Shown here: piece by piece, positions 5,145 to 51,528 of the stretch | How positions within the stretch are numbered: position 1 is the stretch's first letter | Layout: every line of letters begins with the position of its first letter | Source of the DNA: Gammaproteobacteria bacterium | Lineage (GTDB): Bacteria; Pseudomonadota; Gammaproteobacteria; Steroidobacterales; Steroidobacteraceae | Length of the DNA stretch: 64,000 nt | Assembly: GCA_003164785.1 (NCBI GenBank) | Contig: PLUE01000069.1 | Span: 124,001-188,000, forward strand | Direction of reading: 5' to 3' | The notes under the pieces: model-generated | Seen by the model: the letters and a program-made list of their open reading frames with translations, nothing else | The model's database searches: none | Told to the model about the DNA's origin: nothing | Translations under genes and position numbers: made by a program

Positions 5145-5154
5145 GCCTCTGCAG

Positions 5155-36480: not shown

Positions 36481-36682
36481 GGCGCGGTTCGTCTGGTGGG
36501 TATCCGCATGCCGCAAGAAAGGGGATGACGAGACGGGGGAGTCTTGTGATATGGCTTGCTGCGGCATGCGGTGCCCGAGGTACAAGGTATCTCAGCCGCC
36601 AATTTTCACAACGACCGATTGGTTCTGTCGGCATGCCATTTTGTAATTGCGGGTTTGCTGGATGCGCCGTGAACGTGTTCCT
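36481..36682. other. Junction region without a gene
   Basis: Nothing recognisable lies between the plus-strand SnoaL-like gene and the truncated carotenoid-oxygenase start. The point where homology stops (around 36680) is probably a deletion or rearrangement breakpoint. Confidence 0.4.
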
Positions 36683-36832
36683 GGATGGTGGTTCGGGGAC
36701 CGTTTGGAACCAGGATCCGTTGAACTCCTCGGGGATCGTGCCCTCGACGATCAAATCGCCGATGTCTGCCTCGATCCGGGAGGGCTCGTTATGGCCGATG
36801 AAATCCAGCGTATTCGGATATGCCTGTGGCAT
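36683..36832 (-). pseudogene. Truncated carotenoid oxygenase / lignostilbene dioxygenase N-terminus
   Basis: A minus-strand frame starts at ATG 36832 with AAAGG upstream and encodes MPQAYPNTLDFIGHNEPSRI, then EADIGDLIVEGTIPEEFNGSWF and VPEPP. This is the N-terminus of the RPE65/carotenoid-oxygenase family, the fold of lignostilbene dioxygenases. After about 50 codons homology ends; the frame runs on to 36410 without family sequence and none of the four iron-binding histidines exists. It is the last gene of the minus-strand catabolic operon, 11 bases after the SnoaL gene, and is now a remnant. Confidence 0.7.
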
Positions 36833-36843
36833 GGAGATCGCCT

Positions 36844-37359
36844 TTAAGGTTGTGCGCCGCCGCGCTTGATCACGAGCTCGGGCGGACGCTTGCGGGGAAC
36901 CCATTGACCTTTTCCGGGAAACCGACTGAGGGCCGGTCCATCCCAGAGACGTACGATGCGTCGTTGGAAGAGCCATCCGCCGTCGACCTTCAGCAGCTCG
37001 TCTTCGTAGTATCCGGCAAATCGCAGCGTGTACGGGGGCTCGCCATGGCACTCCGTGACGAAGGCGAAGGATTTCGCCTCGCAGCGCTCCGCGGTGCCGG
37101 TAACCAGCAGTTGCGTCACGTGGTGTTGACGTCCCGGGAAGCCGGGCGAATTCTTGTAGTGATTCGCCAGTTCCCGGATCCCGTCGCGGCCCTCCCAGCG
37201 ATCAGGATCCTCGAACACCTCCTCGATCATCACCGCATCGAGTGTGAAGCATTCCGCAAGCGCATCCACATCCCCCGTATCGAGGGCCCAGGCATACTCC
37301 GCGAACAGATCCTGTATCGCGAACCGGTCGTCTGCCGTCAGCGAACTCTTTATTTTCAT
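36844..37359 (-). CDS. SnoaL-like domain protein in the catabolic operon
   Basis: 171-residue NTF2-fold protein: DRFAIQDLFAEYAWALDTGDVDALAECFT, EGRDGIRELANHY, GRQHHVTQLLVTG and GGWLFQRRIVRLW are typical of SnoaL-like (PF13577-type) proteins, several of which act as hydratases or dehydratases on aromatic or steroid intermediates. The ATG at 37359 is preceded by GAGGG. It follows the GMC gene by 34 bases within the operon. Catalytic role unproven. Confidence 0.82.
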   Translation of the reverse strand: MKIKSSLTADDRFAIQDLFAEYAWALDTGDVDALAECFTLDAVMIEEVFEDPDRWEGRDGIRELANHYKNSPGFPGRQHHVTQLLVTGTAERCEAKSFAFVTECHGEPPYTLRFAGYYEDELLKVDGGWLFQRRIVRLWDGPALSRFPGKGQWVPRKRPPELVIKRGGAQP

Positions 37360-37393
37360 CGATTTGTCCCTCTGCATTGCGTTCCGTGTTCTG

Positions 37394-39100
37394 TCATGCG
37401 AATTGCCTCGCCGGTGGGACCACCGCCTGGGTGCCGTGCCGGTCGGCGGGCACCCGCCAGACGGCATCCACGTCCGCCGACAGGGCCGGACGGCCCAGCA
37501 CGAGGTCCGCGCCTTTTTCGCCGATCATGATGGCGGCGGCGTTGGTGTTGCCGCCGGGGACCGTCGGCATGATGGAGGCGTCGATGACGCGCAGTCCTTG
37601 AACCCCGCGAACTTTCAGTTCCGCGTCCAACACCGCGTCGGGCCCTGTGCCCATCGAGCAGGTACCGACCGGGTGCTGGGTGAGTTGTACCGACGATCGC
37701 ACGAAAGCGTCGATTTCAGCGTCCGATCGAATCTGTTCGCCCGGCGTCAGTTCGGCGCCGGTGAGTTCGGCTTGAGGGCTGGTTCGGTACAGTTCGCGCA
37801 CCGCCCGGATGCCGCGTCGGATCGTGGCGACGTCGTGAGATTCCTGGGCGAGATTCATGACCAGTCGGGGCGCCGCCGTCGGGTCTGCGGAGTGGAGTTC
37901 GACGTGGCCGCGGCTGTGCGGGTGCAAGGCAACGATGCCGACCGAAAACAGGTGCTGCTTTCGCTCCGAGAAGCCCGGATACCAGACATCGGCGTCGAGC
38001 CGCACCGGGTTGCACATCAGCTGCACGTCGGGCCGGTCGAGACCGGGTTCCGTGCGAATGATGCCATTGCAGCTGTTGATCAACGTCGAGAAGGCGCCGC
38101 CGCCAAAAATGGCCCAGCGAGCGGCGGACAGCGCCGCGCGGTCGGCGCGTAATTTCGACAAGAATGTGTTGGCGCGGGTTGCGGCGAATTCGACCATGCT
38201 CACGGCATGCTCGGACAGATTTCGGCCGACGCCCGGCAGATCGGCAACGACCGGGATGGCGTGCCGGTTCAAGTGGGCGGCCGGGCCGACACCCGAGAGC
38301 ATCAGCAGCTGTGGCGAATTGTAGGCGCCGCCGCTCAGGAGAACTTCCCGGCGGGCACGCACCCGCGTGATGCGGCCTTCGCGCGCGTACTCGATGCCGA
38401 CCGCCGTCTGCCCCTCGAACAATACCCGGGTGGTCAGCGCGTTGAGTTCGACGCGCAAGTTTGGACGTTTCATGGAGGGATGCAGATAGGCGCGTGCGGC
38501 GCTCGAGCGCCTTCCCCGGCTGTCGATCGTCACTTCGCCTCGAGCGAATCCTTCCGGAACCTCACCGTTGATGTCGTCCGTGATCGGGTAGCCACAGCGC
38601 TTGGCGGCTTCCATCATTTCCTCGTGAAACAGGCCGTTCGTATTCACGGGGATCACGTGCAGAGGTCCTTTCGAGCCATGATAGCGGTCCTCCCCCCGCC
38701 AGCTGGTTTCCGAGCGCTTGAAGTAGGGAAGCACGTGTTCGTAGCCCCAGCCGGTACAACCCACGGCAGCCCAGCCGTCGTAGTCGAGCGGATGGCCTCT
38801 CATATAGAACATGCCGTTGATGGAAGAGCAGCCGCCCAGCACCTTGCCGCGAGGAATCCACAGCGGCCGGCCGCCGAGATGGGCCTCCGGTTCGCTCATG
38901 AAGTTCCACCCGAATCTCGGATCTCGCACCGCGCGCAGGAATCCCAACGGCATCCGCAAATACGGATGATCGTCGCGGCCGCCGGCTTCCACCAGGATCA
39001 CCGACGATGCTGCGTCCTCCGACAGTCGGGAAGCGAGGACACATCCGGAGGAGCCGGCACCGACCACCACATAATCCGCTTCTGCGTCGTAACGGGCCAT
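37394..39100 (-). CDS. GMC-family FAD oxidoreductase (first)
   Basis: 568-residue flavoenzyme of the glucose-methanol-choline oxidoreductase family, which oxidises alcohols with FAD. FAD-binding VVVGAGSSGCVLASRLSE, VEAGGRD, GKVLGGCSSINGMFYMRGH, the second GMC signature GGAYNSPQLLMLSGVGP and the C-terminal catalytic region LTQHPVGTCSMG (His) with DASIMPTVPGGNTNAAAIMI are intact. The ATG at 39100 overlaps the stop of the NmrA-like gene. In this context it probably oxidises a hydroxymethyl group of a lignin-type phenolic compound; the substrate is inferred. Confidence 0.92.
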   Translation of the reverse strand: MARYDAEADYVVVGAGSSGCVLASRLSEDAASSVILVEAGGRDDHPYLRMPLGFLRAVRDPRFGWNFMSEPEAHLGGRPLWIPRGKVLGGCSSINGMFYMRGHPLDYDGWAAVGCTGWGYEHVLPYFKRSETSWRGEDRYHGSKGPLHVIPVNTNGLFHEEMMEAAKRCGYPITDDINGEVPEGFARGEVTIDSRGRRSSAARAYLHPSMKRPNLRVELNALTTRVLFEGQTAVGIEYAREGRITRVRARREVLLSGGAYNSPQLLMLSGVGPAAHLNRHAIPVVADLPGVGRNLSEHAVSMVEFAATRANTFLSKLRADRAALSAARWAIFGGGAFSTLINSCNGIIRTEPGLDRPDVQLMCNPVRLDADVWYPGFSERKQHLFSVGIVALHPHSRGHVELHSADPTAAPRLVMNLAQESHDVATIRRGIRAVRELYRTSPQAELTGAELTPGEQIRSDAEIDAFVRSSVQLTQHPVGTCSMGTGPDAVLDAELKVRGVQGLRVIDASIMPTVPGGNTNAAAIMIGEKGADLVLGRPALSADVDAVWRVPADRHGTQAVVPPARQFA

Positions 39101-40059
39101 CACGGTCCGACCGGGTGCGGATTGGCCGTCCAACTCGCCTGATGCGCCAACATGATGTCATGCAACGGCGTGGGCTTGCGTCCGGTGATCAATTCCACGT
39201 GATCGGTCAGCACGTCGAAGTAACCCTCTCGAATGGATTGGCCAAAGGTCACCATATCGTCGCTCGACCAAGGGATGGCGCCTCGAGGGCGGACATCGGA
39301 GGCGTGACGCGGCACTCCCAACGCATCGAAATACTCGAACATCTCGTCGTCGTTGACGCGCTTCACGACGATGGGCTTTCCCATCATCAGGGCCGCCATC
39401 TCCACACCTTGCGGAATGGAGAGTAGTTCCGGTCCGGTGATATCGTAGGCCTTGTTCGCATGGCCTTGTTGGATGAGCACTTCGGTGGCGCACGCGACGC
39501 AGTCCTGTCTGGCGACGAACGCCACCCGGCCATCCCCCGAATTGTCCCAACAATGTCCGGCGGCCAACGCGCCCGGGATGATGGCCCCCGCGACCGCCTC
39601 GGCATATTGGCTGTCCCTGAGAAAGGTCCAGTCAAGCCCGGATTGCTCCAGGTGCACTTCAGTCGCGCGATGATCCAGTTTCACGATCGCGGGATTGTCC
39701 GGTTCGGCGGCGCCGAGGACCGAGGTGTAAGCGATGTGCCGTATGCCGGCTCTGGCGGCGGCGTCGATCGCGTTCTTGTGTTGTCCGACCCGGGTGCCGA
39801 CACGGGCGGTGCTGATGAGCAACAACTTGGTGCCGCCCGCGAACGCGATGCTCAATGAACCGGGGTCATCGAAATCAGCGTAGCGGACGCTCGCGCCGCG
39901 CCTCGCGAAGTCGTCGAGGCTCGCCGGCGTCCGCGTAGTCAACACGAGTTGCGAGCCCGGCATCCGGGACAGCAACCGCTCGGCGGCGGCCCGCCCGAAC
40001 GCGCCCGACGCGCCGGTGATGATGACCCTCTCGTGGGTGGGGACTGCGTTGCTGCTCAC
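39100..40059 (-). CDS. NmrA-like NAD(P)-binding oxidoreductase
   Basis: 319-residue atypical SDR with Rossmann motif VIITGASGAFGRAAAERL, then TARVGTRVGQHKNAIDAAARAGIRHIAYTSVLGA and SGLDWTFLRDSQYAE, like quinone oxidoreductase 2 (QorB/YtfG type). I place the start at GTG 40059, which has AGGAG upstream and overlaps the stop of the preceding gene (GTGA); the GTG at 40089 would lack a ribosome-binding site. It may reduce quinones or protect against them during phenol oxidation. Confidence 0.85.
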   Translation of the reverse strand: MSSNAVPTHERVIITGASGAFGRAAAERLLSRMPGSQLVLTTRTPASLDDFARRGASVRYADFDDPGSLSIAFAGGTKLLLISTARVGTRVGQHKNAIDAAARAGIRHIAYTSVLGAAEPDNPAIVKLDHRATEVHLEQSGLDWTFLRDSQYAEAVAGAIIPGALAAGHCWDNSGDGRVAFVARQDCVACATEVLIQQGHANKAYDITGPELLSIPQGVEMAALMMGKPIVVKRVNDDEMFEYFDALGVPRHASDVRPRGAIPWSSDDMVTFGQSIREGYFDVLTDHVELITGRKPTPLHDIMLAHQASWTANPHPVGP

Positions 40060-40613
40060 TGTACTGCGCTCCTGGGTTTCATCAGCCACGTCACTGCCGT
40101 GACGTCATTCGTCTGTCCAATCCTCGTCCAGCCGCTGCCTGCGCCTCTGGACGCAGACCCGGTTGCGATGTAGGTGGCCAGCACCTCAGGCCATGAAGCC
40201 GGCTGCCGGGCGAGGTCCCCTTCACAACCTGTCAGTTCGCCGTGGCAATGATGCTGCACGCCATGGGTGCCGTGGCCGACCAATCGGTAATGCAATTCCT
40301 GGATCGTGCCCGTCAATACGAGGAAATCCGCGTATGTGCAGAGGCCCGCGATCATGTCACGGCGATCGGCCATGGCGAGAAGCCCGCGCGCGAAGCGATA
40401 GCGATCGCCGGTCATCGGGTGACAATCCGACCCGTGTTGCCGGGCGACGGACGCGAAACGCACCGCGGCGTCCACGTTCGGATCGAACACCACGCGAGGC
40501 GCGGGCGACCCGCCCATGGGGGCCGAGGACGCCGGCCGAAGCGCGAGCGTGGCCAGCGCCAGCGATGACGTCACGACGAAGCGGCGCCGGGAGAGCGGTA
40601 CATGCCTGTTCAT
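40056..40613 (-). CDS. Tat-exported protein of unknown function
   Basis: 185-residue protein with a twin-arginine signal (LSRRRFVVTSSLALATLALRP, cleavage near SSA-P). The mature part has several histidines and cysteines (HGSDCHPMTGDRY, GHGTHGVQHHCHGELTGCEGD), suggesting a metal or cofactor ligand. It lies between the cytochrome and the NmrA-like gene with ATGA and GTGA overlaps, so it is a tightly coupled part of the oxidase operon. Export by Tat would place it with the cytochrome in the periplasm. I do not recognise the family. Confidence 0.7.
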   Translation of the reverse strand: MNRHVPLSRRRFVVTSSLALATLALRPASSAPMGGSPAPRVVFDPNVDAAVRFASVARQHGSDCHPMTGDRYRFARGLLAMADRRDMIAGLCTYADFLVLTGTIQELHYRLVGHGTHGVQHHCHGELTGCEGDLARQPASWPEVLATYIATGSASRGAGSGWTRIGQTNDVTAVTWLMKPRSAVQ

Positions 40614-40927
40614 CGGTGCTGCCTCGAGTTGTCTTCGAGGTAGTTGGCGATGGCGTCCAGCTGCAGATCGCTCACTTCACCCCGGGTGATCGCCGGCATG
40701 TTGCCCAGGCCCACACGCGCCACGCGACTGACGAACGCGGCGGACAGATCACCGCGCAACAACAACTCCGGTGGTTGGACGCGGCGGCCGAGCAGCCCGG
40801 TCCCCATGCCCTGCTTGCCGTGGCACATCAGGCACTTTTCAACGAACAGCGCCTGTCCATCGAGAGGTGCGCCCATGCCTACGCGTGCGCTCAGCAACCC
40901 GGCGGCAGCCAACCAGAATACCTTCAT
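40610..40927 (-). CDS. Small periplasmic cytochrome c, partner of the VAO-type flavoprotein
   Basis: 105-residue c-type cytochrome with a Sec signal peptide and one haem site, CLMCH. Downstream GNMPAITRGEVSDLQLDAIANYL supplies the axial methionine (NMP) and final helix. The ATG at 40927 overlaps the stop of the flavoprotein gene (ATGA). This size and pairing are those of the cytochrome subunit of p-cresol methylhydroxylase and eugenol hydroxylase, which accepts electrons from the flavin. Start at 40927 chosen because the longer reading has no signal peptide. Confidence 0.85.
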   Translation of the reverse strand: MKVFWLAAAGLLSARVGMGAPLDGQALFVEKCLMCHGKQGMGTGLLGRRVQPPELLLRGDLSAAFVSRVARVGLGNMPAITRGEVSDLQLDAIANYLEDNSRQHR

Positions 40928-42480
40928 GACTTCTGCTCCCGTTGATGAACGGCCGGCCAAATGCCGCTTTTGCCGGGCGCCAAGATGCCTTTCGGGTCGA
41001 GCGCATTCTTGACGCGCTCGTTCAGACGACGCATCGCGTGGTCATTGAAATCGTAGGTCTCGGCCACGGCGTCCATGTAATCCAGGTGGGTGCGATATTC
41101 TCCATACCCGTTCGACCGCGCATCGGCGATCAAGGTGCGTAGAAAGGGATCGACCCGCTTCATCATGGCGGCGTCGTCCTTGTCGAGGAGAACGGAGTTG
41201 ACGTTGATGAGATGCCGCTCGCCGAACGCGAAGCTACCCTGATAGTCCATGCCGAACTCGTGGTACCGCGCATAGGTACGTTTGAACTGTTCCACGGCCA
41301 GCCGACCGGACTGCGGAAGCACGGGCGAGAATCCGACGTGACCACCCCGTCCCCCATGCCAGTTGGCGCTTTGCAAGGGAAACGTCATGGGAACGCCCCC
41401 GACGATGGCCTCGCGATCGTCGCCGTCCTTCCAGGTGGTGCGCTTGAGCGTCATCGGGCCGAGCGCCGTGATCGCCTTGTCGATGATGTTCATCGATTCG
41501 CGGGCGACCGCCGTTCTGCCGTACACGCGCAGGCTGACGCCCCACCAGCCCATGCCGAATTTCTTGCGAATCGCGCTGATCACATCGTCATCGAGGGCAC
41601 CGGGTTTGGTCGTCCATTGATTGCGGGTGGTCACCACCGCGGCGGCCCGCAGCCAGTTGCCGATGGTGGGCGATTGCTGCAGCACTCCTTCGCGGCGCAG
41701 CGGTCCCAATGTATCGATGAGCGGTCCGAGGTCCTCGGGACGATCGAACTCGACGTCGAGACCTAGAACGGATTCCGGGGCCGGCATCAGCCACATGCCC
41801 ATCTTGGTGACGATGCCGAAATTCGACTGGCAAAACAGCTGATCCCAGGATGGCCCGTATCCGTAGCGATAGAGCTGCCAAGTCGGCGATTGCGTCAGGG
41901 CGCCCATGCCCGTCCTCAGCAGATCGCCATCCGCGAGCACCACCTCCATGCCGCAGATCCTTGCGGTATTGTCGCCATACGGCGTGTAGCCGACGCCCCG
42001 GTCGAGCGCATTGCCGACGACCGAACCCCAGCTGTTGGCGGGAACCGACAGCCAAAGTCTGATGCCCTTCGTCTGCAGGTGATCGTAGAGGTCATAAAAG
42101 CCCACCCCGGGTTCCACGAGCACCGTGCCATTCGCTTCATCGACTTCGATCTTCTTCATCCGGGAAAGATCGAGCACCACGGAACCGGCCAGCGCGGGGG
42201 CGGAGCCTCCATAGCCGAGATTCTTTCCACGGCTGATCGGCCACAAGGGAATGCGGTGTTCCGCGGCAACCTTCACCAGAGCGCGTATCTCTTCCACGGT
42301 CGCAGGCGCGAGCGCGCCCGACGGGTGATGCGCCGCGTCGTCGATCGCAAACTTGTCCGCATAGCTTGCGCGGTCGAGGTCGTCGAAGAACGCGTATTCC
42401 TCCCCGACGCATGCGGTGAATTGCTTCACCGCCGAGCGAAAGGCGGTATTGGAAATCCCGTTCGGTAGTATGGTGTTCAC
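40924..42480 (-). CDS. VAO/p-cresol-methylhydroxylase-type FAD oxidoreductase
   Basis: 518-residue FAD-linked oxidase of the vanillyl-alcohol-oxidase/4-cresol-dehydrogenase family, oxidising the para side chain of 4-hydroxyphenyl compounds. FAD-domain motifs are PLWPISRGKNLGYGG, VLVEPGVGFYDLYD and GNALDRGVGYTPYGD; the C-terminal part has NGYGEYRTHLDYMD, containing the Tyr-Arg pair that binds the phenolate in VAO, and ILAPGKSGIWP. The start is GTG 42480. It may differ from PchF and VAO in flavin attachment: the PchF tyrosine site reads ANWHGGRGG and the histidine site reads ERHLINV. The adjacent cytochrome suggests dehydrogenase rather than oxidase use. Confidence 0.88.
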   Translation of the reverse strand: MNTILPNGISNTAFRSAVKQFTACVGEEYAFFDDLDRASYADKFAIDDAAHHPSGALAPATVEEIRALVKVAAEHRIPLWPISRGKNLGYGGSAPALAGSVVLDLSRMKKIEVDEANGTVLVEPGVGFYDLYDHLQTKGIRLWLSVPANSWGSVVGNALDRGVGYTPYGDNTARICGMEVVLADGDLLRTGMGALTQSPTWQLYRYGYGPSWDQLFCQSNFGIVTKMGMWLMPAPESVLGLDVEFDRPEDLGPLIDTLGPLRREGVLQQSPTIGNWLRAAAVVTTRNQWTTKPGALDDDVISAIRKKFGMGWWGVSLRVYGRTAVARESMNIIDKAITALGPMTLKRTTWKDGDDREAIVGGVPMTFPLQSANWHGGRGGHVGFSPVLPQSGRLAVEQFKRTYARYHEFGMDYQGSFAFGERHLINVNSVLLDKDDAAMMKRVDPFLRTLIADARSNGYGEYRTHLDYMDAVAETYDFNDHAMRRLNERVKNALDPKGILAPGKSGIWPAVHQREQKS

Positions 42481-42539
42481 CGCTGCTGCATTCCTCGCTG
42501 ACGCATGAAGGTTTGTTCCGATGTCCTGGTGTGCAGGGT

Positions 42540-43748
42540 TTATTGGGCGAAGGCGCGAACGGGACGCATCCCGACTCCGACACTCAGCAAGAGCGCGAGG
42601 ACGAAACTGGAGGTGACCACCATGAGCAAGGGGGCCACCGAAAATGCCGGGAACCAGGAAATAACGGCGCTTGCGGCGGCGGTCACTGCCAGTGTGAGCG
42701 TGCCGAGCGTCGCCGCGGTCGCACCGGCGCCGCCGGTGCCGGCGTCGAGCGCGCTGATGGCGGCCGGCGTGAGAATGAGGCCAACCAGTGCGAACGCCAG
42801 CATCGAAAACAGTTGAAAGGTCACCAGGCCCACGACGTCGGCAGCGATCATTGCCCCGAGAACGACGCAGGCCATCGTTCCCAGAAGGGTCATGCGGACG
42901 AGCAATGTGCGCGCACCCCAGCGGCGCATCAACACGGGTGACAGTTGCGACATGCCGATCGAGCACAGCGAATCGATGCCCAACAGGATCGAGTAGCCGT
43001 GGCTGTCCAGGTGGAATGCCGACGGAAATACGAAGGGCGCGGCGGTCACATACGCATAGGGGATGGTGGTGGCGAGACCGGCCACCACCGCGGCAAGCAG
43101 GAATCGTCGATTCCTCGCCAACCCGCCATAAACACGCCAGACGGCGACGCCCGCGGGTCGCCGCCGTTCCGCCGGCAGTGACTCCACGAGAGCGAAGCGC
43201 ACGACCAGCAACCCGAGGATGCCGGTCATGGCGAGCACCGCGAACAGTCCGCGCCACGGCATCAGGATCAACAGATAACTGCCGATGAGCGGCGCGAGCA
43301 CCGGGGACAATCCAATGATGAGGAACGTGAAGGCCATGAGCTGCGCCGCGGCCGCGCCGCTTCGCAGATCACGAATCATGGCGCGGGATACGGCGGTTCC
43401 GGCGCAGATCGAGCATCCCTGGACGAAACGCTGGGCAATCAGCATGTCGATGGATCGACTCGCGGCGCATGACAGGGACGCGACGACGAAGATGGAAAGA
43501 CCAATATATAACGTGAGTTTTCGGCCATGGCGGTCGCTGAACGAGCCTATGGGTATCTGCGCGACGGCAAGCGCGAGGAGAAAAACGGAGAGCGTGCGCT
43601 GAACCTCGCTCGGCGTCGCTCCAAAGTCCCGCGCGATGTGGGGGAACGCGGGCAGATACAAATCGATCGACAGCGGACCGAGACACGAAAGCAGCCCCAG
43701 CGCCAGCCCCGGGCGCCAGGTCGCTGACGAAGACGCCGAGCGCTGCAT
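42540..43748 (-). CDS. MFS transporter, Bcr/CflA family
   Basis: 402-residue transporter with twelve hydrophobic segments, motif A-like GSFSDRHGRKLTLY and the Bcr/CflA-type N-terminus GPLSIDLYLPAFPHIARDFG. Proteins of this family are drug/proton antiporters and export small amphipathic molecules. It is first in the minus-strand operon and starts at ATG 43748; the operator palindrome at 43799 lies 51 bases upstream. It could export toxic phenolic intermediates, or import substrate; direction is inferred. Confidence 0.9.
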   Translation of the reverse strand: MQRSASSSATWRPGLALGLLSCLGPLSIDLYLPAFPHIARDFGATPSEVQRTLSVFLLALAVAQIPIGSFSDRHGRKLTLYIGLSIFVVASLSCAASRSIDMLIAQRFVQGCSICAGTAVSRAMIRDLRSGAAAAQLMAFTFLIIGLSPVLAPLIGSYLLILMPWRGLFAVLAMTGILGLLVVRFALVESLPAERRRPAGVAVWRVYGGLARNRRFLLAAVVAGLATTIPYAYVTAAPFVFPSAFHLDSHGYSILLGIDSLCSIGMSQLSPVLMRRWGARTLLVRMTLLGTMACVVLGAMIAADVVGLVTFQLFSMLAFALVGLILTPAAISALDAGTGGAGATAATLGTLTLAVTAAASAVISWFPAFSVAPLLMVVTSSFVLALLLSVGVGMRPVRAFAQ

Positions 43749-43798
43749 CGCTCCATTCTGCAAACTCGCTACCCCCGAAACCCGCCTATGCTGACATC

Positions 43799-43812
43799 GT
43801 AACATCGGTTAC
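43799..43812. promoter_or_regulatory. Operator candidate 2, GTAAC-N4-GTTAC palindrome in a divergent promoter
   Basis: GTAACATCGGTTAC lies between the minus-strand MFS-led operon (start 43748) and the plus-strand GMC gene (start 43874), so one protein bound here could control both. It shares both half-sites and spacing with the site at 36002. Confidence 0.6.
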
Positions 43813-43873
43813 ACTATCCTGCACCTGCCGCCAAGGGATTTCTCAAGTACAGCGCTTACGCGGGTGATCATTT

Positions 43874-45472
43874 ATGAGTGAAGAATGCGACATCGTCGTC
43901 GTGGGTGGCGGGTCCGGCGGATGTGCGATGGCCGGTCGACTCGCGGAGGCCGGCGTCAGTGTGGTTTTGTTGGAGGCGGGTAAATCGGACCGGGATTACC
44001 GTCTGAAGATCCCGGCGCTCACGAGTTCCGTCGTACAAAACACCGACTTCGATTGGAAATACGTTGCGGAGCCGGATCCCTCGATTGGTGGGCGGGCGGA
44101 CGTCTGGCCGGGCGGGAAGCGCCTGGGCGGCGGAAGTTCCATCAACGGCATGATGTACGTCCGTGGACACCGCTGGGACTACGATCGCTGGGCCGAGTTG
44201 GGGGCCCGCGGATGGACGTACGAGGACGTGCTGCCGTTCTTCCGGCGCATGGAGACATTTCGCGGCGGCGATTCGCGCTGGCGCGGAAGCACCGGCCCGA
44301 TCAGCGTCTCACACGGCCGTGTTCATTATCCCATCGTCGATGACTGGATCCGCGCCGCCGAGAGCTGCGGTGTCCCGCGCACGAGTGACCACAACGGCGA
44401 GAACCCCGGAGAGGGCACGGATTATGCGCAGGTCACACAGCGGAATGGTTTGCGCAGTTCGTCGACCGCCTACCTGAAGTTGCCTGGAGTCGGAAAGCAT
44501 CTTCAGGTGCAGTTGGAATCCCAGGTCAGACGAATCCTCATCGAAGACGGTCGCGCCGTTGGCGTCGAATTCGATCGAGAGGGACGGACGACCCGAATCA
44601 GGGCGCGCGCGGGCGTCGTGCTGGCCGCGGGCAGCCTGAACACTCCGCGTCTCCTCATGTTATCGGGCATCGGTCCCGGTGCGCACTTGCAGGAATTCGG
44701 CATCGACGTCATCCGTGACTCGAGCGGCGTGGGCGCCAACCTGCAGGAGCACGTCGGAACCCATCTGGTGAACCAGGTCAATACGCCCACGATCAACAGC
44801 GATGCGCGCGGACTGGCGCTCGCCGTTCAGATGGCCAATTTCGCGTTTCGCCGGCGGGGGGTCTTGACGACTTCCGTCGGACACGCGCAGGCGTTTTTGC
44901 GTACCCGGGAGCGGGCGCCGGTGCCGAATGTCCAGATTTCATTCACCGCATTTGCGTTCGACCTCGACAAGGATGGGAAGCTCGTGCTTCGCCGCGACCC
45001 ATCGGTGAGCACCGTCGTGTGCATCGCCCGGCCGCAGTCGAGAGGGACGCTCACCCTGCGATCCAAGGATCCGCTAGCCCCACCGAGAATTCAGCATGAA
45101 CTGCTTGGAATCGAGGACGATTTGGATCAACTCGTGGAGGGATTGGAGCGGGCGCGGCAAATCATGGACACCCCCTCGATGCGCTCCTATGTGACCTCCG
45201 AGGTACGGCCGGGCACGACCTCGACGGGCGACGCCCTGCGGGATTTCGCGCGGGTGGCCGCGATTCCGCTCTACCACCCGGTGGGCACCTGTAAAATGGG
45301 GATCGATCCCGGCGCGGTCGTCGACCCGTCGCTGGCGCTGCATGGCATCAAGGGATTGTGGATATCGGACGCATCGGTGATGCCCACGTTGCCGATCGGC
45401 AACACCAATGCGACTTCCATCATGATAGGCGACAAAGGCGCCTCGCATGTCCTTGCAGCGCTGCAGGCGTGA
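43874..45472 (+). CDS. GMC-family FAD oxidoreductase (second)
   Basis: 532-residue GMC flavoenzyme with VVVGGGSGGCAMAGRLAEAG, LEAGKSD, GKRLGGGSSINGMMYVRGHRWDY, GSLNTPRLLMLSGIGPG and the catalytic region YHPVGTCKMG (His) with SDASVMPTLPIGNTNATSIMIG. It resembles the first GMC protein but the two differ clearly in length and sequence, so they probably act on different stereoisomers or steps. It is divergent from the MFS-led operon and lies downstream of operator candidate 2. It converges with marR, 17 bases apart. Confidence 0.92.
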   Translation: MSEECDIVVVGGGSGGCAMAGRLAEAGVSVVLLEAGKSDRDYRLKIPALTSSVVQNTDFDWKYVAEPDPSIGGRADVWPGGKRLGGGSSINGMMYVRGHRWDYDRWAELGARGWTYEDVLPFFRRMETFRGGDSRWRGSTGPISVSHGRVHYPIVDDWIRAAESCGVPRTSDHNGENPGEGTDYAQVTQRNGLRSSSTAYLKLPGVGKHLQVQLESQVRRILIEDGRAVGVEFDREGRTTRIRARAGVVLAAGSLNTPRLLMLSGIGPGAHLQEFGIDVIRDSSGVGANLQEHVGTHLVNQVNTPTINSDARGLALAVQMANFAFRRRGVLTTSVGHAQAFLRTRERAPVPNVQISFTAFAFDLDKDGKLVLRRDPSVSTVVCIARPQSRGTLTLRSKDPLAPPRIQHELLGIEDDLDQLVEGLERARQIMDTPSMRSYVTSEVRPGTTSTGDALRDFARVAAIPLYHPVGTCKMGIDPGAVVDPSLALHGIKGLWISDASVMPTLPIGNTNATSIMIGDKGASHVLAALQA

Positions 45473-45489
45473 GCGGGCCCGGGCAGGAT

Positions 45490-46077
45490 TCAGCTCTTCG
45501 ATGCGCGCTTGCTTGCGACGTCCGACGTCGTACGCTGCAAAAATATTGAGTGCCCTTCGGGGTCGAGGGCATCCAGTCGATTGGTGATTGCCACGATACA
45601 GGCATCGAACGATTGGATTTCCTTCGGCGTCATCGCTTCGAACATGTATTTCGCCAGCTCCTCCGTGTGGGGCTGCATCTGCTCGTAGAGCGTCCGGCCT
45701 TTCGGCGTCAATCGCAGCACCTTGCGACGGCGATTTCGGGGGTCGAGGTGGGTGATGATGCGGTCGTGGCGCTCCAGGACCGCGATTCCCCGGCTCACCA
45801 TCATCGTGTTGACGCCGACGAGATCCGCGAGTTCATGGGATGCCGTGACGCCCAGGCGCCCGATCATCATCAACAACCGGAACTCATTGAGGCTGATTCG
45901 ATAGCGTTTCTTTATATAGACGGTGAACGGCGCCATGATCCGGTTTTCCATCTTGAGCAGGCGTCGCAAGACATCCGCCGGCGCGGCGCCGGACAGGAGA
46001 TCGACTGCTGATTCGCGCTCGTGGAGGTCCACTTTCGGCGTCGTTGGCTTGGGTGACTTGGTCGGCTTCTTGCTCAT
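45490..46077 (-). CDS. MarR-family regulator of the catabolic island
   Basis: 195-residue winged-helix protein with an extended Lys/Pro-rich N-terminus (SKKPTKSPKPTTPK), ISLNEFRLLMMIGRLGVTASHELADLVGV, recognition helix NTMMVSRGIAVLERHD and wing DPRNRRRKVLRLTPKGR. It lies among the catabolic genes and its own upstream region holds operator candidate 3, so it is the best candidate for the protein that binds GTAAC-N4-GTTAC. MarR proteins of aromatic pathways typically release DNA on binding the substrate or a CoA ester. Confidence 0.88.
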   Translation of the reverse strand: MSKKPTKSPKPTTPKVDLHERESAVDLLSGAAPADVLRRLLKMENRIMAPFTVYIKKRYRISLNEFRLLMMIGRLGVTASHELADLVGVNTMMVSRGIAVLERHDRIITHLDPRNRRRKVLRLTPKGRTLYEQMQPHTEELAKYMFEAMTPKEIQSFDACIVAITNRLDALDPEGHSIFLQRTTSDVASKRASKS

Positions 46078-46155
46078 CCCGCAGGTGGTCTCTCGAAAAA
46101 TGTGCCAGCGTCATTGTGCCCACTTTAAATGCTTTACGCGAGATGGCTTCCTATT

Positions 46156-46169
46156 GTAACGTATGTTCC
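46156..46169. promoter_or_regulatory. Operator candidate 3, near-match GTAAC-N4-GTTCC
   Basis: GTAACGTATGTTCC differs from the symmetrical motif by one base. It lies between divergent marR (start 46077) and the DUF3237 gene (start 46252) in an AT-rich stretch, with further weaker symmetry ATTGT-N18-ACAAT (46153-46180). Confidence 0.5.
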
Positions 46170-46251
46170 ATTATAACAATTCGAATTCGCCGGCTGGTCT
46201 GGCCGTCCGCCGGACCATCAGTTCCGAGCTTTGTTCTTGAAGGAGTTGGTC

Positions 46252-46782
46252 GTGAGCGATTCCCTGTCGGATCACCCCGTATTTGCCGATATGTCGACTC
46301 CGACCGAACCGAAATTGGAATTTTGCTTCTCCATCAGAGTCTACTTTACGCGCGTGAACATGGTCGGGGACATGCCATCGGGCGCGGCTCGCGGTGCGGT
46401 CTATGTGGACGGCGGGACCATCGAGGGGCCGCGGCTCACCGGAAGCGTGCTTCCCGGGTCCGGGGCGGACTGGGCGCTGTTTCGGCCCGACGGGGTTCTG
46501 GCCACCGATGCGAGATACATGCTGCAGGCGGATGACGGTGCTCTGATCCTCCTGCACAACCGAGGCTATCTGTGGGGTAGGACCCCGGACGTCATTCCCC
46601 GAATGCAGGATTTCATGTTCAGAGGCGGCCCGCCGGTGCCGCATCGCGAGTTCTATCTGCGCTCGTCCCCCGTCTTCGAGGTCGCGAAAGGAAAGCATGA
46701 CTGGCTCACGCGGCATGTCTTTGTGGGAATCGGTGATCGATACGCGGACGGCAATATCATTCGCTACTTTGCGGTGCTGTAG
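46252..46782 (+). CDS. DUF3237-domain protein
   Basis: 176-residue protein carrying the DUF3237 fold: LEFCFSIRVYF, GGTIEGPRLTGSVLPGSGADWALFRPDGV, DARYMLQADDGALILLHNRG, REFYLRSSPVFEV and WLTRHVFVGIGDR are in family order. As I recall, the PhcF and PhcG decarboxylases of dehydrodiconiferyl-alcohol catabolism in Sphingobium SYK-6 are DUF3237 proteins. I chose GTG 46252, with AAGGAG at 46240-46245, over TTG 46231. It leads the DUF3237-ALDH-SDR gene set. Enzymatic role here is inferred. Confidence 0.85.
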   Translation: MSDSLSDHPVFADMSTPTEPKLEFCFSIRVYFTRVNMVGDMPSGAARGAVYVDGGTIEGPRLTGSVLPGSGADWALFRPDGVLATDARYMLQADDGALILLHNRGYLWGRTPDVIPRMQDFMFRGGPPVPHREFYLRSSPVFEVAKGKHDWLTRHVFVGIGDRYADGNIIRYFAVL

Positions 46783-46806
46783 CAACCAACGACCAGGAGA
46801 CTCGCA

Positions 46807-48282
46807 ATGGTGCCTGACGGAATCAATCTTAAGCATCCGGATCGCCTCTACATCGGGGGCGGGTGGGTCGAGGCCCTCAGCGGCAGGATGTTCGAACTCG
46901 TTTCGCCGAACACCGAAAAGGTGGTCGCTCGCGTCGCCGAGGCGGGCGAATCCGACATGGACCGGGCGGTCGATGCGGCGCGAAAGGCCTTTGATGTCGG
47001 ACCGTGGGGAAAAATGTCCCCCGGCGAGCGGGGGAAACTCATTCGTGCGATGGGTGAGCTGCTGCGCGTCCGGGAGCCGGAACTGGCAAAGGCGTGGGTC
47101 GCGCAGGTGGGCGGGCTGGCGTCGTTCGCTCCCATCATGACCAGCGGCGGGACGCACGATTTCATGGCCACCGCTTCTCTGTGCGACACGTATCCCTTCG
47201 TGGAGCAGCGGCCGAGTCAGATGGTCAACACGGCGATCGTGGTTCGTGAACCGGCCGGCGTGGTGGTGGCCATCGCGCCGTGGAACGCGCCGTACGGGAT
47301 CATGGCATCGAAGGTGGCCTACGCCCTGGTCGCGGGCTGCACCGTGATCGTCAAGCCCTCTCCCGAAACGCCGCTCGAGGCCTACATCATCGCCGAAGCG
47401 GCGGAGGCGGCGGGCATTCCCCCTGGGGTCGTTAATCTCGTATGCGGCGGTCGCGAAGCATCCGACTATCTGGTGCGAAATGCCGGCGTCGACAAGGTGA
47501 GCTTCACCGGATCCACTCTGGCCGGCAAACGCATCGCCACCGTCTGCGGGGAGCGGATTGCCCGCGTGACCCTCGAACTGGGCGGCAAATCCGCGGCCAT
47601 CGTGCGCGACGATTTTCCGATCGAGGCGGCCGCGGCGATTCTGGGCAACACAATAACGATCATGAGCGGCCAGGTCTGTGCGATGTTGAGCCGGGCAATC
47701 GTCTCGAGGCATCGCCACGACGCCCTGGCCTCGGCCATCAAGGACGTGATGGAGTCGATTCGGATCGGTCACAGCGACGATCCCACGACGCAACTCGGGC
47801 CGGTTGCGATGAAGCGGCAGCTCGACCGCGTCGAGGGGTATATCGCGGAAGGCCGGAAGGTCAGTGATCTCGTGACCGGGGGCCGGCGTCCGCCGCACAT
47901 GAACGCCGGCTATTTCGTCGAGCCGACGCTCTTTGCGAACGTCGACAACAAGAGCCGCATCGCCCAGGAAGAGATTTTCGGACCGGTGCTCTGCTTGATA
48001 CCCGCGGAGGATGAGGCCGATGCGATCCGGATCGCGAACGAGAGCAACTACGGTTTGAATGGCTCCGTCATCACGCAGGATGTCGACGCGGCCTACAACA
48101 TCGCGAGACAGATGCGCGTGGGCGGCGTCGGACAGAACGGCATGCGCCTCGAATTCAGCATGCCCTACGGCGGCTTCAAGCAGTCCGGCATCGGTCGTGA
48201 GGGCGGACCGGAAGGACTGGTGCCGTATCTCGAGACGAAAACCATTCTCCTGGATGGCTTGCCGTCCAGTTTGCGGCTTTGA
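46807..48282 (+). CDS. NAD(P)-dependent aldehyde dehydrogenase
   Basis: 491-residue aldehyde dehydrogenase. Cofactor and catalytic motifs: APWNAPYG, VIVKPSPETP, FTGSTLAGKRIA, LELGGKSAA with Glu257 as general base, SGQVCAM with the nucleophile Cys291, and EEIFGPVL. CAGGAG precedes the ATG. Placed between the DUF3237 and SDR genes, it probably oxidises an aromatic or side-chain aldehyde made by the GMC or VAO-type enzyme to the acid. Confidence 0.95.
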   Translation: MVPDGINLKHPDRLYIGGGWVEALSGRMFELVSPNTEKVVARVAEAGESDMDRAVDAARKAFDVGPWGKMSPGERGKLIRAMGELLRVREPELAKAWVAQVGGLASFAPIMTSGGTHDFMATASLCDTYPFVEQRPSQMVNTAIVVREPAGVVVAIAPWNAPYGIMASKVAYALVAGCTVIVKPSPETPLEAYIIAEAAEAAGIPPGVVNLVCGGREASDYLVRNAGVDKVSFTGSTLAGKRIATVCGERIARVTLELGGKSAAIVRDDFPIEAAAAILGNTITIMSGQVCAMLSRAIVSRHRHDALASAIKDVMESIRIGHSDDPTTQLGPVAMKRQLDRVEGYIAEGRKVSDLVTGGRRPPHMNAGYFVEPTLFANVDNKSRIAQEEIFGPVLCLIPAEDEADAIRIANESNYGLNGSVITQDVDAAYNIARQMRVGGVGQNGMRLEFSMPYGGFKQSGIGREGGPEGLVPYLETKTILLDGLPSSLRL

Positions 48283-48293
48283 CCGCTGCCGAC

Positions 48294-49040
48294 ATGCGCT
48301 TCGTAGACAAAATCGTCTTGATCGTGGGTGGCAACAGCGGCATTGGCCTGGCGGCTGCCATCGGATTCGCACGGGAGGGCGCCACCGTGATCATCACGGG
48401 GCGCGATCAAGTCACGCTCGACAAGGCGATTCATGACATTGGCGCCGCCGCCGCCTTCCGCGCGGATGTCGCCGACACGGAGAGCATGGTCCCGGTGGTC
48501 GAGGAGATCCGCAGGATGCACGGACGGATCGACGTCTTGTTCGTGAATGCCGGAGTTGGTGCATTCGCACCCGTCCGGGAAGTTACGCGCGAATTATGGG
48601 ACCACATTCACGACATCAACCTGCGCGGATGTTTCTTTGCCGTACAGAAGGCACTGCCCTTGATGGGGAGGGGTAGTTCCATCGTCGTTACCGGTTCGAT
48701 CGGATCGCTCGCCGGCGTGCCCGGTAATGCGATCTACGCGGCGTCGAAAGCCGGACTACGCGCGATCGTTAGGATTCTCGCGACCGAATTGGTGGCGGAG
48801 GGAATTCGCGTCAACATGGTCAGCCCGGGCCCCACGGAGACACCCCTCATCCGCCGCAACGTGGGCATGGATGAATCGGCGGTCGAGAGTCTGCGTCAGG
48901 TCATGATCTCGGTGGTACCGATGAAGCGGATGGGGGAGCCGGAGGAGATCGCACGGCCGGTTCTATTCTTGGCGTCGGATGAAGCCAGTTTCATCACCGG
49001 CGTCGACCTCTTCGTCGATGGCGGATGCCTGGAGCTGTGA
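48294..49040 (+). CDS. SDR-family dehydrogenase/reductase
   Basis: 248-residue classical short-chain dehydrogenase: VGGNSGIGLAAA cofactor motif, NAGVGAF, catalytic serine in VTGSIGSLAG, YAASKAG with Tyr and Lys, and PGPTETP. C-terminal FVDGGCLEL is typical. TTG at 48279 overlapping the ALDH stop is an alternative start; I prefer ATG 48294. It likely interconverts an alcohol and ketone in the same pathway. Not convincingly assigned to a substrate. Confidence 0.9.
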   Translation: MRFVDKIVLIVGGNSGIGLAAAIGFAREGATVIITGRDQVTLDKAIHDIGAAAAFRADVADTESMVPVVEEIRRMHGRIDVLFVNAGVGAFAPVREVTRELWDHIHDINLRGCFFAVQKALPLMGRGSSIVVTGSIGSLAGVPGNAIYAASKAGLRAIVRILATELVAEGIRVNMVSPGPTETPLIRRNVGMDESAVESLRQVMISVVPMKRMGEPEEIARPVLFLASDEASFITGVDLFVDGGCLEL

Positions 49041-49195: not shown

Positions 49196-51352
49196 ATGCG
49201 TAGTCAGATCCTTGCGGTACTCGGCGCGGCATCGGTCGCGGTGGCCGGTCTGGCCGCCCCTGTAGCGGCCGCCGGCGGCCCCTACGCGTCGGTCGACACC
49301 CAGCGGCTGTCGCAGGCCGCCTCACCGGCGAACGCGGGCCAATGGATGTCGTACGGCCGCGATTACAGCGAGCAGCGCTACAGTCCGCTCAAGCAGATCG
49401 ATGCGGACAACGCCGGCCGGCTGGGTCTTGCCTGGTATGGTGATCTGGCCGAGCGCGGCGGCAGTTACGAGACGACACCGATCGCCGTCGACGGCAGCAT
49501 TTTCGTGACGACCCCCTGGAGCAAGGTCTACGCCTTCGACGCAAAGACCGGCAAACTGCGTTGGAAATACGACCCCAAGGTTCCGGGCGAGTACGCCGTG
49601 AAGCTGTGCTGCGGCATCGTGAACCGCGGTGCCGCGGCGTGGAAGGGCAAGGTGATATGGGGCACGTTGGACGGGCGACTGATCGCCGTCGATGGGAAGA
49701 CCGGCAGGAAAGTCTGGGAGGTCCAGGCGACGGATCCGCAGAAAACGCTGTCCATCACCGGCGCGCCACGCATCGCGAATGGCCGCATTTTCATCGGCGA
49801 GGCGGGATCCGAGTTCGAGCAGCGCGGCTACATGGCCGCCTACGATGCCGACAATGGCAAGGAGTTGTGGCGCTGGTGGGTGGTGCCCGGCGATCCGTCG
49901 AGAGCGTTCGAGCAGCCGGAGCTCGAATGGGCCGCGAAGACCTGGACCGGTGAATGGTGGAAGGCCGGCGGCGGCGGCACTCCCTGGGATGCCATCAACT
50001 ACGACCCGGTCACCGATCTCGTCTACATCGGTACCGGCAACGGTGCGCCGTGGCCTTCGGAGATCCGGTCGCCGGGCGGTGGCGACAACCTGTTCACCTC
50101 GTCGATCGTTGCGCTGGATGCGAAGACCGGCAAGTATCGCTGGCACTACCAGGAGACGCCGGCCGACAGCTTCGACTTCGACAGCACGCAGCAGATCATC
50201 ACGGCGGATATTCCCATCAACGGTGAGAAAAGACATGTGGTGATGCATGCCCCCAAGAACGGCATGTTCTACGTGATCGATGCGACCACCGGCCAACTGC
50301 TGGCCGGAAAGCCCTTCGTGCCGACGCTGAACTGGATGACGGGACTCGACGCGAACGGCAGACCGAGCCTGAACCCGGAGGCCAATTACGGCAAGACCGG
50401 CAAGGGATTCAACGTCGTGCCGTCGGCGGGCGGCGCGCACAGCTGGCACCCCATGGCGTTCAATCCCAACACCGGGCTCGTGTACATCCCGACCAATTAC
50501 GGCAGCTTTCCCCTGGTGGCGGAGGCGGGCGCGAAGATGGGTAATCAGCTGCTCTCGATCAACGTCACCAAGCGTCCCAACGATCCGCCCCCGAAGCTCG
50601 ATGGCGCCGGTTCCTACCTGCTGGCGTGGGACCCTGTGAACATGGCGGCAGTCTGGAAGCAGCCGCAGGGCAGCGCGAAATCGGGAGTGATGACGACCGC
50701 CGGCAACCTCGTGTTCCAGGGTTCCGCGCCACGGAGTTTCTCGGCGTTCCGCGCGGATACCGGCGAGCGGGTCTGGACGACGGACACCCAGGCGGGCATC
50801 GTCGGCGGGTCGGTGAGCTACACCGTCGATGGGGTACAGTATGTCGCCGTGGTGGCCGGCACCAGCGGTTTTGGTGGCTACTGGGCGCCGACTTACTCGC
50901 GACTGCTGGTTTACAAGCTGGGTGGCACCGCGACGCTCCCCGAGCCCGCGCAATACGCGCCACCCGTGCTCGATCCGCCCGCTGAGTTTGGCGACGCGGG
51001 CCAGTTGGCGAAGGGCGAAGCAGAATACAACGCGCACTGTGGCAGCTGCCATGGGAATAACACCCGGGTCAGCAGCATATTCCCGGATCTGCGCTACGCG
51101 AGCGCGCTACAGAGCGCCGACTTGTTCAAGGCGATCGTGATCGACGGCGTGTTGCAGGCCAATGGCATGGTGTCCTTCGCCAAGGTGCTGACCCCGACGG
51201 ACGCCGAAGCGATTCGCGCGCATGTCGTGCGCCTGGCAAACCTGGCCAAGAACGCGCCACCGGGGCTCGGCTTCGGCCCCGGGTCCGCGCCGGGGCCCGC
51301 GCCGCCGCCGGGGGCTCCGCCAGCTACGCCTGCACCGCCCCTGCATCAATGA
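49196..51352 (+). CDS. PQQ-dependent quinohaemoprotein alcohol dehydrogenase
   Basis: 718-residue periplasmic dehydrogenase with a signal peptide, an eight-bladed PQQ propeller and a C-terminal cytochrome c (CGSCH). The vicinal disulphide CC over PQQ is in KLCCGI; GGGTPWDAINYDP and GTGNGAPWP are PQQ-pocket motifs. The catalytic aspartate region reads SFDFDST: Asp327 followed two residues later by Asp329, the D-x-D pattern associated with lanthanide-dependent enzymes. A Pro-rich tail follows the haem domain. Electrons probably pass via the cytochrome domain to the cytochromes encoded next. Confidence 0.93.
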   Translation: MRSQILAVLGAASVAVAGLAAPVAAAGGPYASVDTQRLSQAASPANAGQWMSYGRDYSEQRYSPLKQIDADNAGRLGLAWYGDLAERGGSYETTPIAVDGSIFVTTPWSKVYAFDAKTGKLRWKYDPKVPGEYAVKLCCGIVNRGAAAWKGKVIWGTLDGRLIAVDGKTGRKVWEVQATDPQKTLSITGAPRIANGRIFIGEAGSEFEQRGYMAAYDADNGKELWRWWVVPGDPSRAFEQPELEWAAKTWTGEWWKAGGGGTPWDAINYDPVTDLVYIGTGNGAPWPSEIRSPGGGDNLFTSSIVALDAKTGKYRWHYQETPADSFDFDSTQQIITADIPINGEKRHVVMHAPKNGMFYVIDATTGQLLAGKPFVPTLNWMTGLDANGRPSLNPEANYGKTGKGFNVVPSAGGAHSWHPMAFNPNTGLVYIPTNYGSFPLVAEAGAKMGNQLLSINVTKRPNDPPPKLDGAGSYLLAWDPVNMAAVWKQPQGSAKSGVMTTAGNLVFQGSAPRSFSAFRADTGERVWTTDTQAGIVGGSVSYTVDGVQYVAVVAGTSGFGGYWAPTYSRLLVYKLGGTATLPEPAQYAPPVLDPPAEFGDAGQLAKGEAEYNAHCGSCHGNNTRVSSIFPDLRYASALQSADLFKAIVIDGVLQANGMVSFAKVLTPTDAEAIRAHVVRLANLAKNAPPGLGFGPGSAPGPAPPPGAPPATPAPPLHQ

Positions 51353-51528
51353 GCTGAGTTTGGCGATGGCTGGTCGGGCTCAAGCCCGCGGCACGTGCGT
51401 TATCGATGTGCCAGTGCAATACGATCGTCAGCGCAATGTCGTACCTTGCGTTCAGGCGGTTTCGCTTCACGCATCGTTCACAATCCAGTGCCATACTGCA
51501 CGCCCGTCGGCGTTTTATTGGGATTGTA

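Follow-up and report, generated by a model that had tools for sequence, protein, structure and literature searches.

A conserved lignin-dimer catabolic island in a steroidobacteraceal genome, probably a sister of the pin cluster

Positions 36058-49040 of a 64,000-nucleotide stretch of gammaproteobacterial DNA (contig C70:124001-188000; hereafter ‘the window’) hold a real, conserved lignin-dimer catabolic island, which looks like a compact gene set apparently built to dismantle two-ring fragments of wood or of plant lignans. The island and the pin cluster are probably sisters, and we favour, with moderate confidence, assigning the former as a pin-type cluster of a sister type for beta-beta (8-8') lignans or the matching lignin dimers. 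The pin genes (pinZYXWVU) were reported in 2025 for the pinoresinol (beta-beta) pathway of Novosphingobium rhizosphaerae LY, with PinZ an NmrA-like reductase, PinY a GMC oxidoreductase, PinX a DUF3237 protein, PinWV a PCMH-type flavocytochrome, and PinU a lignostilbene dioxygenase (PMC12607616). All six enzyme classes are present here in one place, the dioxygenase as a remnant and a nearby intact copy, which supports this assignment. The LY system, from a distant bacterium, uses nearly the same kinds of enzyme, and its PinWV flavocytochrome resembles that of the island; the Phc pathway (beta-5) known from Sphingobium sp. (lignivorans) SYK-6 matches less well.

The genome comprises 5.85 Mb in 75 contigs (completeness 99.7, contamination 6.45). 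Genes were called in the window and scanned against Pfam and NCBIfam; the main Pfam family of the GMC, flavoprotein, cytochrome, DUF3237, aldehyde dehydrogenase, SDR, SnoaL, and MFS proteins scored above its curated cut-off, and that of the MarR-type regulator did not. Related loci are the best 80 of 323 from an alignment search with DUF3237 proteins, each with up to 10 kb of DNA on either side, and the family set consists of 100 genomes of the window's own family, including its own genome. The DUF3237 tree holds 49 of 98 collected sequences, and the flavoprotein tree 45 of 66, each plus that of the window; the rows omitted come mostly from Novosphingobium and Sphingobium loci resembling those retained. 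These two trees and the dioxygenase tree were built by a quick method. The places of several long rows in the DUF3237 and flavoprotein trees, and of a single row in the NmrA tree, are unsure, these rows having been flagged. SYK-6 locus tags were assigned by counting genes, a procedure supported by its arriving at the published tags of phcF/phcG, LSD7, phcC/phcD, pinX, and pinZ.

The features of the island, and the further genes that may belong with it, are as follows.

36058..36480, plus strand: SnoaL-like protein, 140 amino acids (Pfam SnoaL_2/SnoaL)
36659..36832, minus strand: decayed lignostilbene-dioxygenase remnant (tblastn)
36844..37359, minus strand: SnoaL_4 (NTF2-like) protein, 171 amino acids (Pfam)
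37394..39100, minus strand: GMC1, GMC oxidoreductase of the PhcC/PhcD group (GMC_oxred_N/C, tree)
39100..40059, minus strand: NmrA-like reductase, PinZ-related (Pfam, identity, tree)
40056..40613, minus strand: Tat-signal protein, 185 amino acids (signal; homologues at the same place in related loci)
40610..40927, minus strand: small exported cytochrome c, CxxCH as CLMCH, PinV-like partner of the flavoprotein (Pfam, motif)
40924..42480, minus strand: VAO/PCMH-type flavoprotein, 518 amino acids, PinW-like (FAD_binding_4 and FAD-oxidase_C)
42540..43748, minus strand: MFS transporter (Pfam; homologues in related clusters 48-54%)
43874..45472, plus strand: GMC2, GMC oxidoreductase of the SLG_27980 type (GMC_oxred_N/C, tree)
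45490..46077, minus strand: MarR-type regulator (sub-cut-off Pfam match and cluster homologues)
46252..46782, plus strand: DUF3237 protein, predicted decarboxylase, PinX-like clade (Pfam, tree)
46807..48282, plus strand: aldehyde dehydrogenase (ALDH) (Pfam; identity 72% with the RL4 and 74% with the SYK-6 homologue)
48294..49040, plus strand: classical SDR (Pfam; 59-65% to homologues in RL4, V4, D43FB, and locus L162)
49196..51352, plus strand: pyrroloquinoline-quinone (PQQ)-type alcohol dehydrogenase with C-terminal cytochrome c, probable member (homologues in related clusters 37-40%)
60547..62627, plus strand: two SnoaL_4 proteins, one of two domains, possible members (33-35% to SYK-6 LdpA, SLG_12650, placed by gene count)

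Gene arrangement and counterparts in other genomes

Five minus-strand genes, running flavoprotein-cytochrome-Tat-NmrA-GMC1 from 42480 down to 37394, overlap by 4, 4, 4, and 1 bases and therefore very likely form one operon, with the MFS gene 59 bases upstream and the SnoaL_4 gene downstream. The plus strand carries GMC2 and, beyond the minus-strand MarR-like gene, the genes for DUF3237, ALDH, SDR, and PQQ dehydrogenase. The SnoaL_4 pair at 60547-62627 makes up a second block together with a PQQ-dehydrogenase gene and the intact dioxygenase gene past the window end. An earlier note on this DNA had listed, within 12 kb, two GMC oxidoreductases, a VAO/PCMH flavoprotein with its cytochrome c, a DUF3237 protein, an ALDH, an SDR, SnoaL-like proteins, and an MFS transporter, all of which the Pfam scans bear out. 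The MarR regulator that it also named falls just under the cut-off (23.7 against 24.6 bits) and is backed by cluster homologues in Novosphingobium sp. RL4 (52%) and SYK-6 (46%). Two genes stand outside that list, those for the NmrA-like reductase and the Tat-signal protein.

The same set recurs in distant genomes. Fourteen homologues lie inside 18.2 kb of an RL4 megaplasmid (flavoprotein 73%, ALDH 72%, cytochrome 66%, NmrA 61%, SnoaL_4 60%, GMC2 59%, SDR 59%, DUF3237 58%, MarR 52%, intact dioxygenase 50%, MFS 49%, SnoaL 45%, PQQ dehydrogenase 38%, Tat 28%). All 14 members of this RL4 set are found within 24.3 kb in Sphingobium sp. D43FB; 13 in a Caulobacteraceae metagenome-assembled genome (MAG), in which no GMC2 was seen and the Tat gene was placed by position (25%); and eight within the 45 kb examined of Sphingobium sp. 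V4. SYK-6 has ten, at about 3.001-3.022 Mb, where gene counting identifies the dioxygenase as SLG_27970 (LSD5) and the neighbouring GMC gene as SLG_27980. This locus resembles the island in its flavoprotein (70%), ALDH (74%), SnoaL_4 (60%), GMC2 (58-59%), DUF3237 (53-56%), cytochrome (53%), dioxygenase (50%), MarR (46%), SnoaL (40%), and Tat proteins (32%); it differs in that its dioxygenase is intact and in that no counterpart of NmrA, PQQ dehydrogenase, or MFS, nor an SDR of the 50% type, was seen there. In the literature examined, we found no account of the LSD5/SLG_27980 locus as a pathway.

Among the 80 related loci, a flavoprotein with 58% identity or more occurs in ten and an NmrA protein with 50% or more in five, and 13 loci hold five or more members. 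The SnoaL protein at 36058-36480 is matched at 38% or more in 57 of the 80 loci, and its homologues (40-50%) stand near SDR and DUF3237 genes in RL4, V4, D43FB, SYK-6, and L162; homologues of the SnoaL_4 protein (60-64%) occur in the clusters of RL4, SYK-6, D43FB, and L162. In another 23 loci, the DUF3237 gene is instead followed by those for a flavoprotein (43-46%) and a cytochrome, an arrangement equal to pinX-W-V as numbered for N. aromaticivorans. In the family set, ten genomes, the window's own included, encode a flavoprotein of at least 61%. The island is one of a conserved cluster type (flavoprotein 61-73%), other examples of which occur in part of the window's family, in sphingomonads (SYK-6 among them), and on megaplasmids. 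Neither this cluster type nor its members outside sphingomonads were found described in the literature searched, which excluded most subscription papers.

Chance grouping is ruled out by this recurrence in distant genomes and by the proximity of DUF3237 to dioxygenase genes, since all six DUF3237 genes of the genome lie no more than 22 kb from a dioxygenase gene (a result equalled in 0 of 20,000 trials in which positions were drawn at random on a single circle as long as the genome) and four of the six no more than 7 kb away (equalled in 1 of 20,000).

Further afield, four Acidobacteriota MAGs (L091, L096, L102, L106) carry DUF3237 proteins of 61-68% identity; three of them also encode an NmrA protein (45-46%), two a SnoaL_4 protein (62-70%), and one a flavoprotein (46%). 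These loci are related clusters outside Proteobacteria.

Placement of the enzymes

The DUF3237 protein belongs to a 39-row PinX-like clade (support of 98 in the SH-like approximate likelihood-ratio test, SH-aLRT; several long branches flagged), which holds the SYK-6 protein SLG_07290 and those of the Novosphingobium X-W-V loci, the two standing in for PinX (SLG_07290 as the listed SYK-6 homologue), and it is 57% identical to the PinX-like protein of N. umbonatum. PhcF (44%) and PhcG (42%) lie in other clades, alongside two other DUF3237 proteins of the same genome. GMC2 (58-59%) shares a clade (100/100) with SLG_27980, which Table 1 of a 2026 review (PMC12997858) gives as the PinY homologue in SYK-6, and is of PinY type by way of that homologue. 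Of the two oxidoreductases, GMC1 alone falls in the PhcC/PhcD group (92/93, open fork), with 52% identity to PhcD of SYK-6. Placement with sugar or terpenoid enzymes, one half of the condition under which the earlier note would have given up its dimer assignment, was looked for among the related loci and does not hold for GMC1, GMC2, or the DUF3237 protein.

The NmrA-like reductase is 59-65% identical to its cluster homologues and 45% to PinZ of SYK-6 (SLG_07320); the latter was recognized at 766 kb by gene count and by Ser39, Met154, and residues 248-259 (PVDDQYVRGIPW), features reported for SlPinZ and, shifted by three, for NrPinZ (PMC12817470). The island protein retains GxxGxxG and the inserted, Trp-ending PinZ loop, an insertion described relative to triphenylmethane reductase (PMC12817470), and for this reason plausibly works like PinZ, though its pocket residues differ. 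A plant-type pinoresinol/lariciresinol reductase was considered and rejected: none is among its 11 PDB matches, the nearest being YtfG and triphenylmethane reductase.

The best solved relatives of the flavoprotein are 4-phenol-oxidizing enzymes of the VAO/PCMH type, headed by vanillyl-alcohol dehydrogenase (VAD) of Marinicaulis flavus. The protein has the FAD_binding_4 fold, an adjacent CxxCH cytochrome, a His at the flavin-linking VAD site His387, and Ala148-Asn149 at the flavin N5 site in place of the acidic/Leu pair of oxidases. VAD itself has Asp150-Pro151 there, and its P151N variant remains a dehydrogenase (PMC7617285). We predict from these residues a cytochrome-linked dehydrogenase, for which, given the behaviour of P151N, the neighbouring cytochrome c is the likely electron acceptor. 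Relatives in the cluster type and the PinW-like protein have Gly-Asn at the N5 site, a pair absent from Table 1 of PMC7617285; the linking His and a Gly/Ala-Asn pair are thus common to the island and PinW-like proteins. The flavoprotein shares the architecture of the PinW-like protein but not its clade, falling in another, of 24 rows (SH-aLRT 100). Deeper lineages of its clade, in a tree rooted at midpoint, belong mostly to the window's own family, and sphingomonads and the window are nested among them.

The earlier note regarded the VAO-type enzyme as a new addition to such pathways; PinVW of LY (PMC12607616) and a flavocytochrome of Pseudomonas sp. SG-MS2 (PMC12997858) precede it. In the latter gammaproteobacterium, the VAO/PCMH flavocytochrome PinAB starts pinoresinol breakdown (PMC12997858, PMC12607616). 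By the published description, it is like the island in host class, enzyme type, and the lignan substrate proposed for the latter, and unlike it in that its first step is oxidative and is described as unrelated to the LY pathway.

The Tat-signal protein has no match in Pfam or NCBIfam. Eleven homologues, aligned at 19-31% identity, come directly after the cytochrome in gene order at loci L067, L068, L128, L195, L197, L075, L080, L079, L076, L070, and L199, in sphingomonads and the window's own family; row L073:8626-9129, which looked NTF2-like and not like a Tat homologue, was removed from the alignment. The protein may be a third component or a maturation factor of these flavocytochromes.

Dioxygenases and the Phc-like locus

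The earlier note saw in the island the start of a carotenoid oxygenase of the lignostilbene-dioxygenase type. The type stands; the piece is a decayed remnant and not the start of a working gene, so that an intact dioxygenase gene in the operon is ruled out. At 36832-36689 (minus strand), a lignostilbene dioxygenase is recognizable by its N-terminal 48 residues, which are 50% identical to an intact copy of the genome (tblastn, E 1e-15 against a 601-base stretch and 1e-12 against the window). The motif TFTAHP, found near residue 165 in intact enzymes, follows in the same frame at 36676-36659, and beyond it are short, weak matches only. A 44-residue portion matches (55%) a SYK-6 dioxygenase that, from its position at 1.40 Mb, was taken to be LSD4.

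The gene for the nearest intact dioxygenase (C70:189022-190455) lies outside the window, beginning 1022 bases beyond its end and 28 kb from the operon. The enzyme is full length, keeps the four His in the alignment, groups with LSD5 and PinU-like proteins (SH-aLRT 100), and has, like LSD5, a Phe at the site of LSD4 Ser283. LSD5 and LSD6, both with Phe at this site, were reported to prefer lignostilbene over the beta-5 stilbene in lysates (PMC8191317).

In all, the genome encodes 11 carotenoid-oxygenase (lignostilbene-dioxygenase) homologues, against eight lignostilbene dioxygenases in SYK-6 and the most in the family set, in which the next genome has ten; one of the 11, at C70:457 kb, pairs with LSD7 (SH-aLRT 100). 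Any such homologue is present in 31 of the 100 genomes (some matches being partial in fragmented genomes). The homologues are patchily expanded, with 5-11 per genome in 15 and 0-3 in the other 85.

One dioxygenase belongs to a locus of another kind, at C34:190-212 kb (L024, L025), which runs dioxygenase, a gene for 308 amino acids, ALDH, GMC, DUF3237, GMC; another DUF3237 gene follows at a distance of about 15 kb. Its GMC proteins are 60% identical to PhcD and 48% to PhcC, its DUF3237 proteins 68% to PhcG and 45% to PhcF, and its dioxygenase 58% to the 1.40-Mb SYK-6 copy taken as LSD4. This Phc-like locus is probably the beta-5 pathway of the genome.

Proposed pathway and competing assignments

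The reactions, their order, and the substrate class are what we infer from gene content, gene overlaps, homology, clade placement, and conservation, the order of steps being taken from homology to the LY pathway. The NmrA-like reductase would open a benzylic ether ring using NADPH, and the freed CH2OH would be oxidized to a carboxylate by GMC2, perhaps with GMC1 or the PQQ dehydrogenase. Decarboxylation by the DUF3237 protein would then open the second ring and form an alkene. The flavoprotein and cytochrome c, perhaps with the Tat protein, would convert the 4-hydroxyphenyl unit to a quinone methide, which would lose formaldehyde to give a stilbene-like diene; a lignostilbene dioxygenase would cleave the diene with O2 into two aldehydes, and ALDH would turn these into acids. 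As the operon dioxygenase is decayed, cleavage must fall to another copy, most simply that 28 kb away. Matches in the genome to the LigB family (eight), Dioxygenase_C (two, one with an internal stop), and VanA_C (six, one weak), families that include other members, make ring cleavage and demethylation of the monomer products plausible.

Beyond the shared enzyme classes and the coupled flavoprotein and cytochrome genes, the island departs from the LY system in several respects. Homologues of Y, Z, X, W, and V lie within 7.7 kb (39100-46782), whereas LY pinY is elsewhere (R9J51_15355); the gene order differs; the U gene is a remnant; and GMC1 and the Tat, SnoaL_4, MarR, and MFS proteins are additional.

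A number of points weigh against the assignment to a pin-type cluster. The flavoprotein is about 45% identical to the PinW-like protein, and the NmrA protein shows similarly low identity to PinZ. The latter protein carries Thr in place of PinZ Lys45/Ser39 and Ala in place of PinZ Met151, lies outside the seven-row PinZ-like clade (96/100), and joins no well-supported group of the NmrA tree. The dioxygenase piece of the island is a decayed gene with an internal deletion, no PinU-type enzyme being encoded in the cluster itself, and the intact copy, which has LdpA-like and PQQ-dehydrogenase genes as neighbours, could serve another pathway. SYK-6 bears the cluster type with no NmrA gene nearby and takes pinoresinol no further than lariciresinol (PMC12607616); together, these facts suggest that the substrate of the type there is probably not plain pinoresinol. 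Seven other genomes of the same genus gave no match to the flavoprotein at E 1e-60 or to the dioxygenase at the limits used. Finally, the genome bin has its 6.45% contamination, and the LY proteins were represented by SYK-6 homologues, with PinU, PinX, and PinW represented by Novosphingobium proteins in matching gene order.

Some of these observations fit an alternative that we consider unlikely, though worth keeping in view: a distinct dimer pathway, in which the reactions proposed above (reduction of an ether, oxidation of CH2OH, decarboxylation, formation of a quinone methide, and stilbene cleavage) would take place on a non-furofuran dimer, for example a lignan of the dibenzylbutane or butyrolactone kind or a dimer of mixed type. 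The cluster type branches apart from pin-like clusters in both flavoprotein and dioxygenase; the NmrA protein is placed outside the PinZ-like clade; SYK-6 has the cluster besides PinZ and a PinX homologue, yet does not use lariciresinol; and LSD5 reportedly favours lignostilbene over the beta-5 stilbene (PMC8191317). Against it, each pin enzyme class is represented, and GMC2 is of PinY type.

The two remaining alternatives fare much worse. Oxidation of monomer side chains (eugenol, isoeugenol, or vanillyl alcohol) by the flavocytochrome and then ALDH, with the DUF3237 and reductase genes as unrelated neighbours, draws on the M. flavus VAD, which is active on eugenol (PMC7617285), and is very improbable in view of the reductase, DUF3237, GMC, dioxygenase, and flavocytochrome genes occurring together in distant genomes. 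Marginally less probable still is the beta-5 (dehydrodiconiferyl alcohol, Phc) pathway to which the earlier note had tied the island: GMC1, the common GMC and DUF3237 families, and the remnant's match to the putative LSD4 agree with it, but the reviewed pathway includes neither a reductase nor a flavocytochrome (PMC12997858), and the assignment is rejected by the DUF3237 tree and by the separate, closer Phc set on C34. Its broader proposal, catabolism of lignin-derived phenolic dimers, is supported in kind.

Stilbene-forming dimer pathways are known mainly from sphingomonads, and the lone gammaproteobacterial pinoresinol route is oxidative and incomplete (PMC12997858); a reductive, decarboxylating kit in a compact island outside sphingomonads would widen the known hosts and would supply enzymes for lignin use. 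The island also bears directly on what the LSD5/SLG_27980 locus may do in the model strain SYK-6 and offers, in the Tat protein, a candidate third flavocytochrome component. More tentatively, and somewhat short of an even chance in our estimation, the cluster type, which SYK-6 also has, may be undescribed, widely shared, and sister to the pin cluster, and may serve to degrade a lignan class lacking a known pathway. If so, the window's own family, and not sphingomonads alone, would be a main home of lignin-dimer catabolism, as the deeper flavoprotein lineages and the 5-11 dioxygenase homologues of part of its members would then indicate.

Several observations concern the surroundings. The SnoaL_4 protein at 36844 was considered as LdpA and set aside: none of its solved relatives is named LdpA (many names being uninformative), and SYK-6 LdpA, placed by gene count, is closer to the SnoaL_4 proteins at 60547-62627. 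Tandem SnoaL_4 proteins of up to 1012 amino acids occur near lignostilbene-dioxygenase and PQQ-dehydrogenase genes at four loci:

C70:394.9-398.0 kb (L031:9920-12958)
C29 (L026:7360-9273)
C38 (L032:10449-13441)
window 60547-61932

That of the window is 35% identical to SYK-6 LdpA and the other three are 38-56% identical to it; they are possibly multi-domain formaldehyde lyases. Regarding a mobile origin, the window holds no tRNA gene and no clear step in G+C along its length. Between the two blocks of the island (51406-56114) lie a MauG-type di-haem peroxidase gene and three genes whose products have no confident family, one with a weak metallophosphatase match. In keeping with a presumed gammaproteobacterial host, the order fabD-fabG-acpP-fabF-pabB-pabC-mltG-tmk-holB at 1672-10022 is that of Escherichia coli with pabB added.

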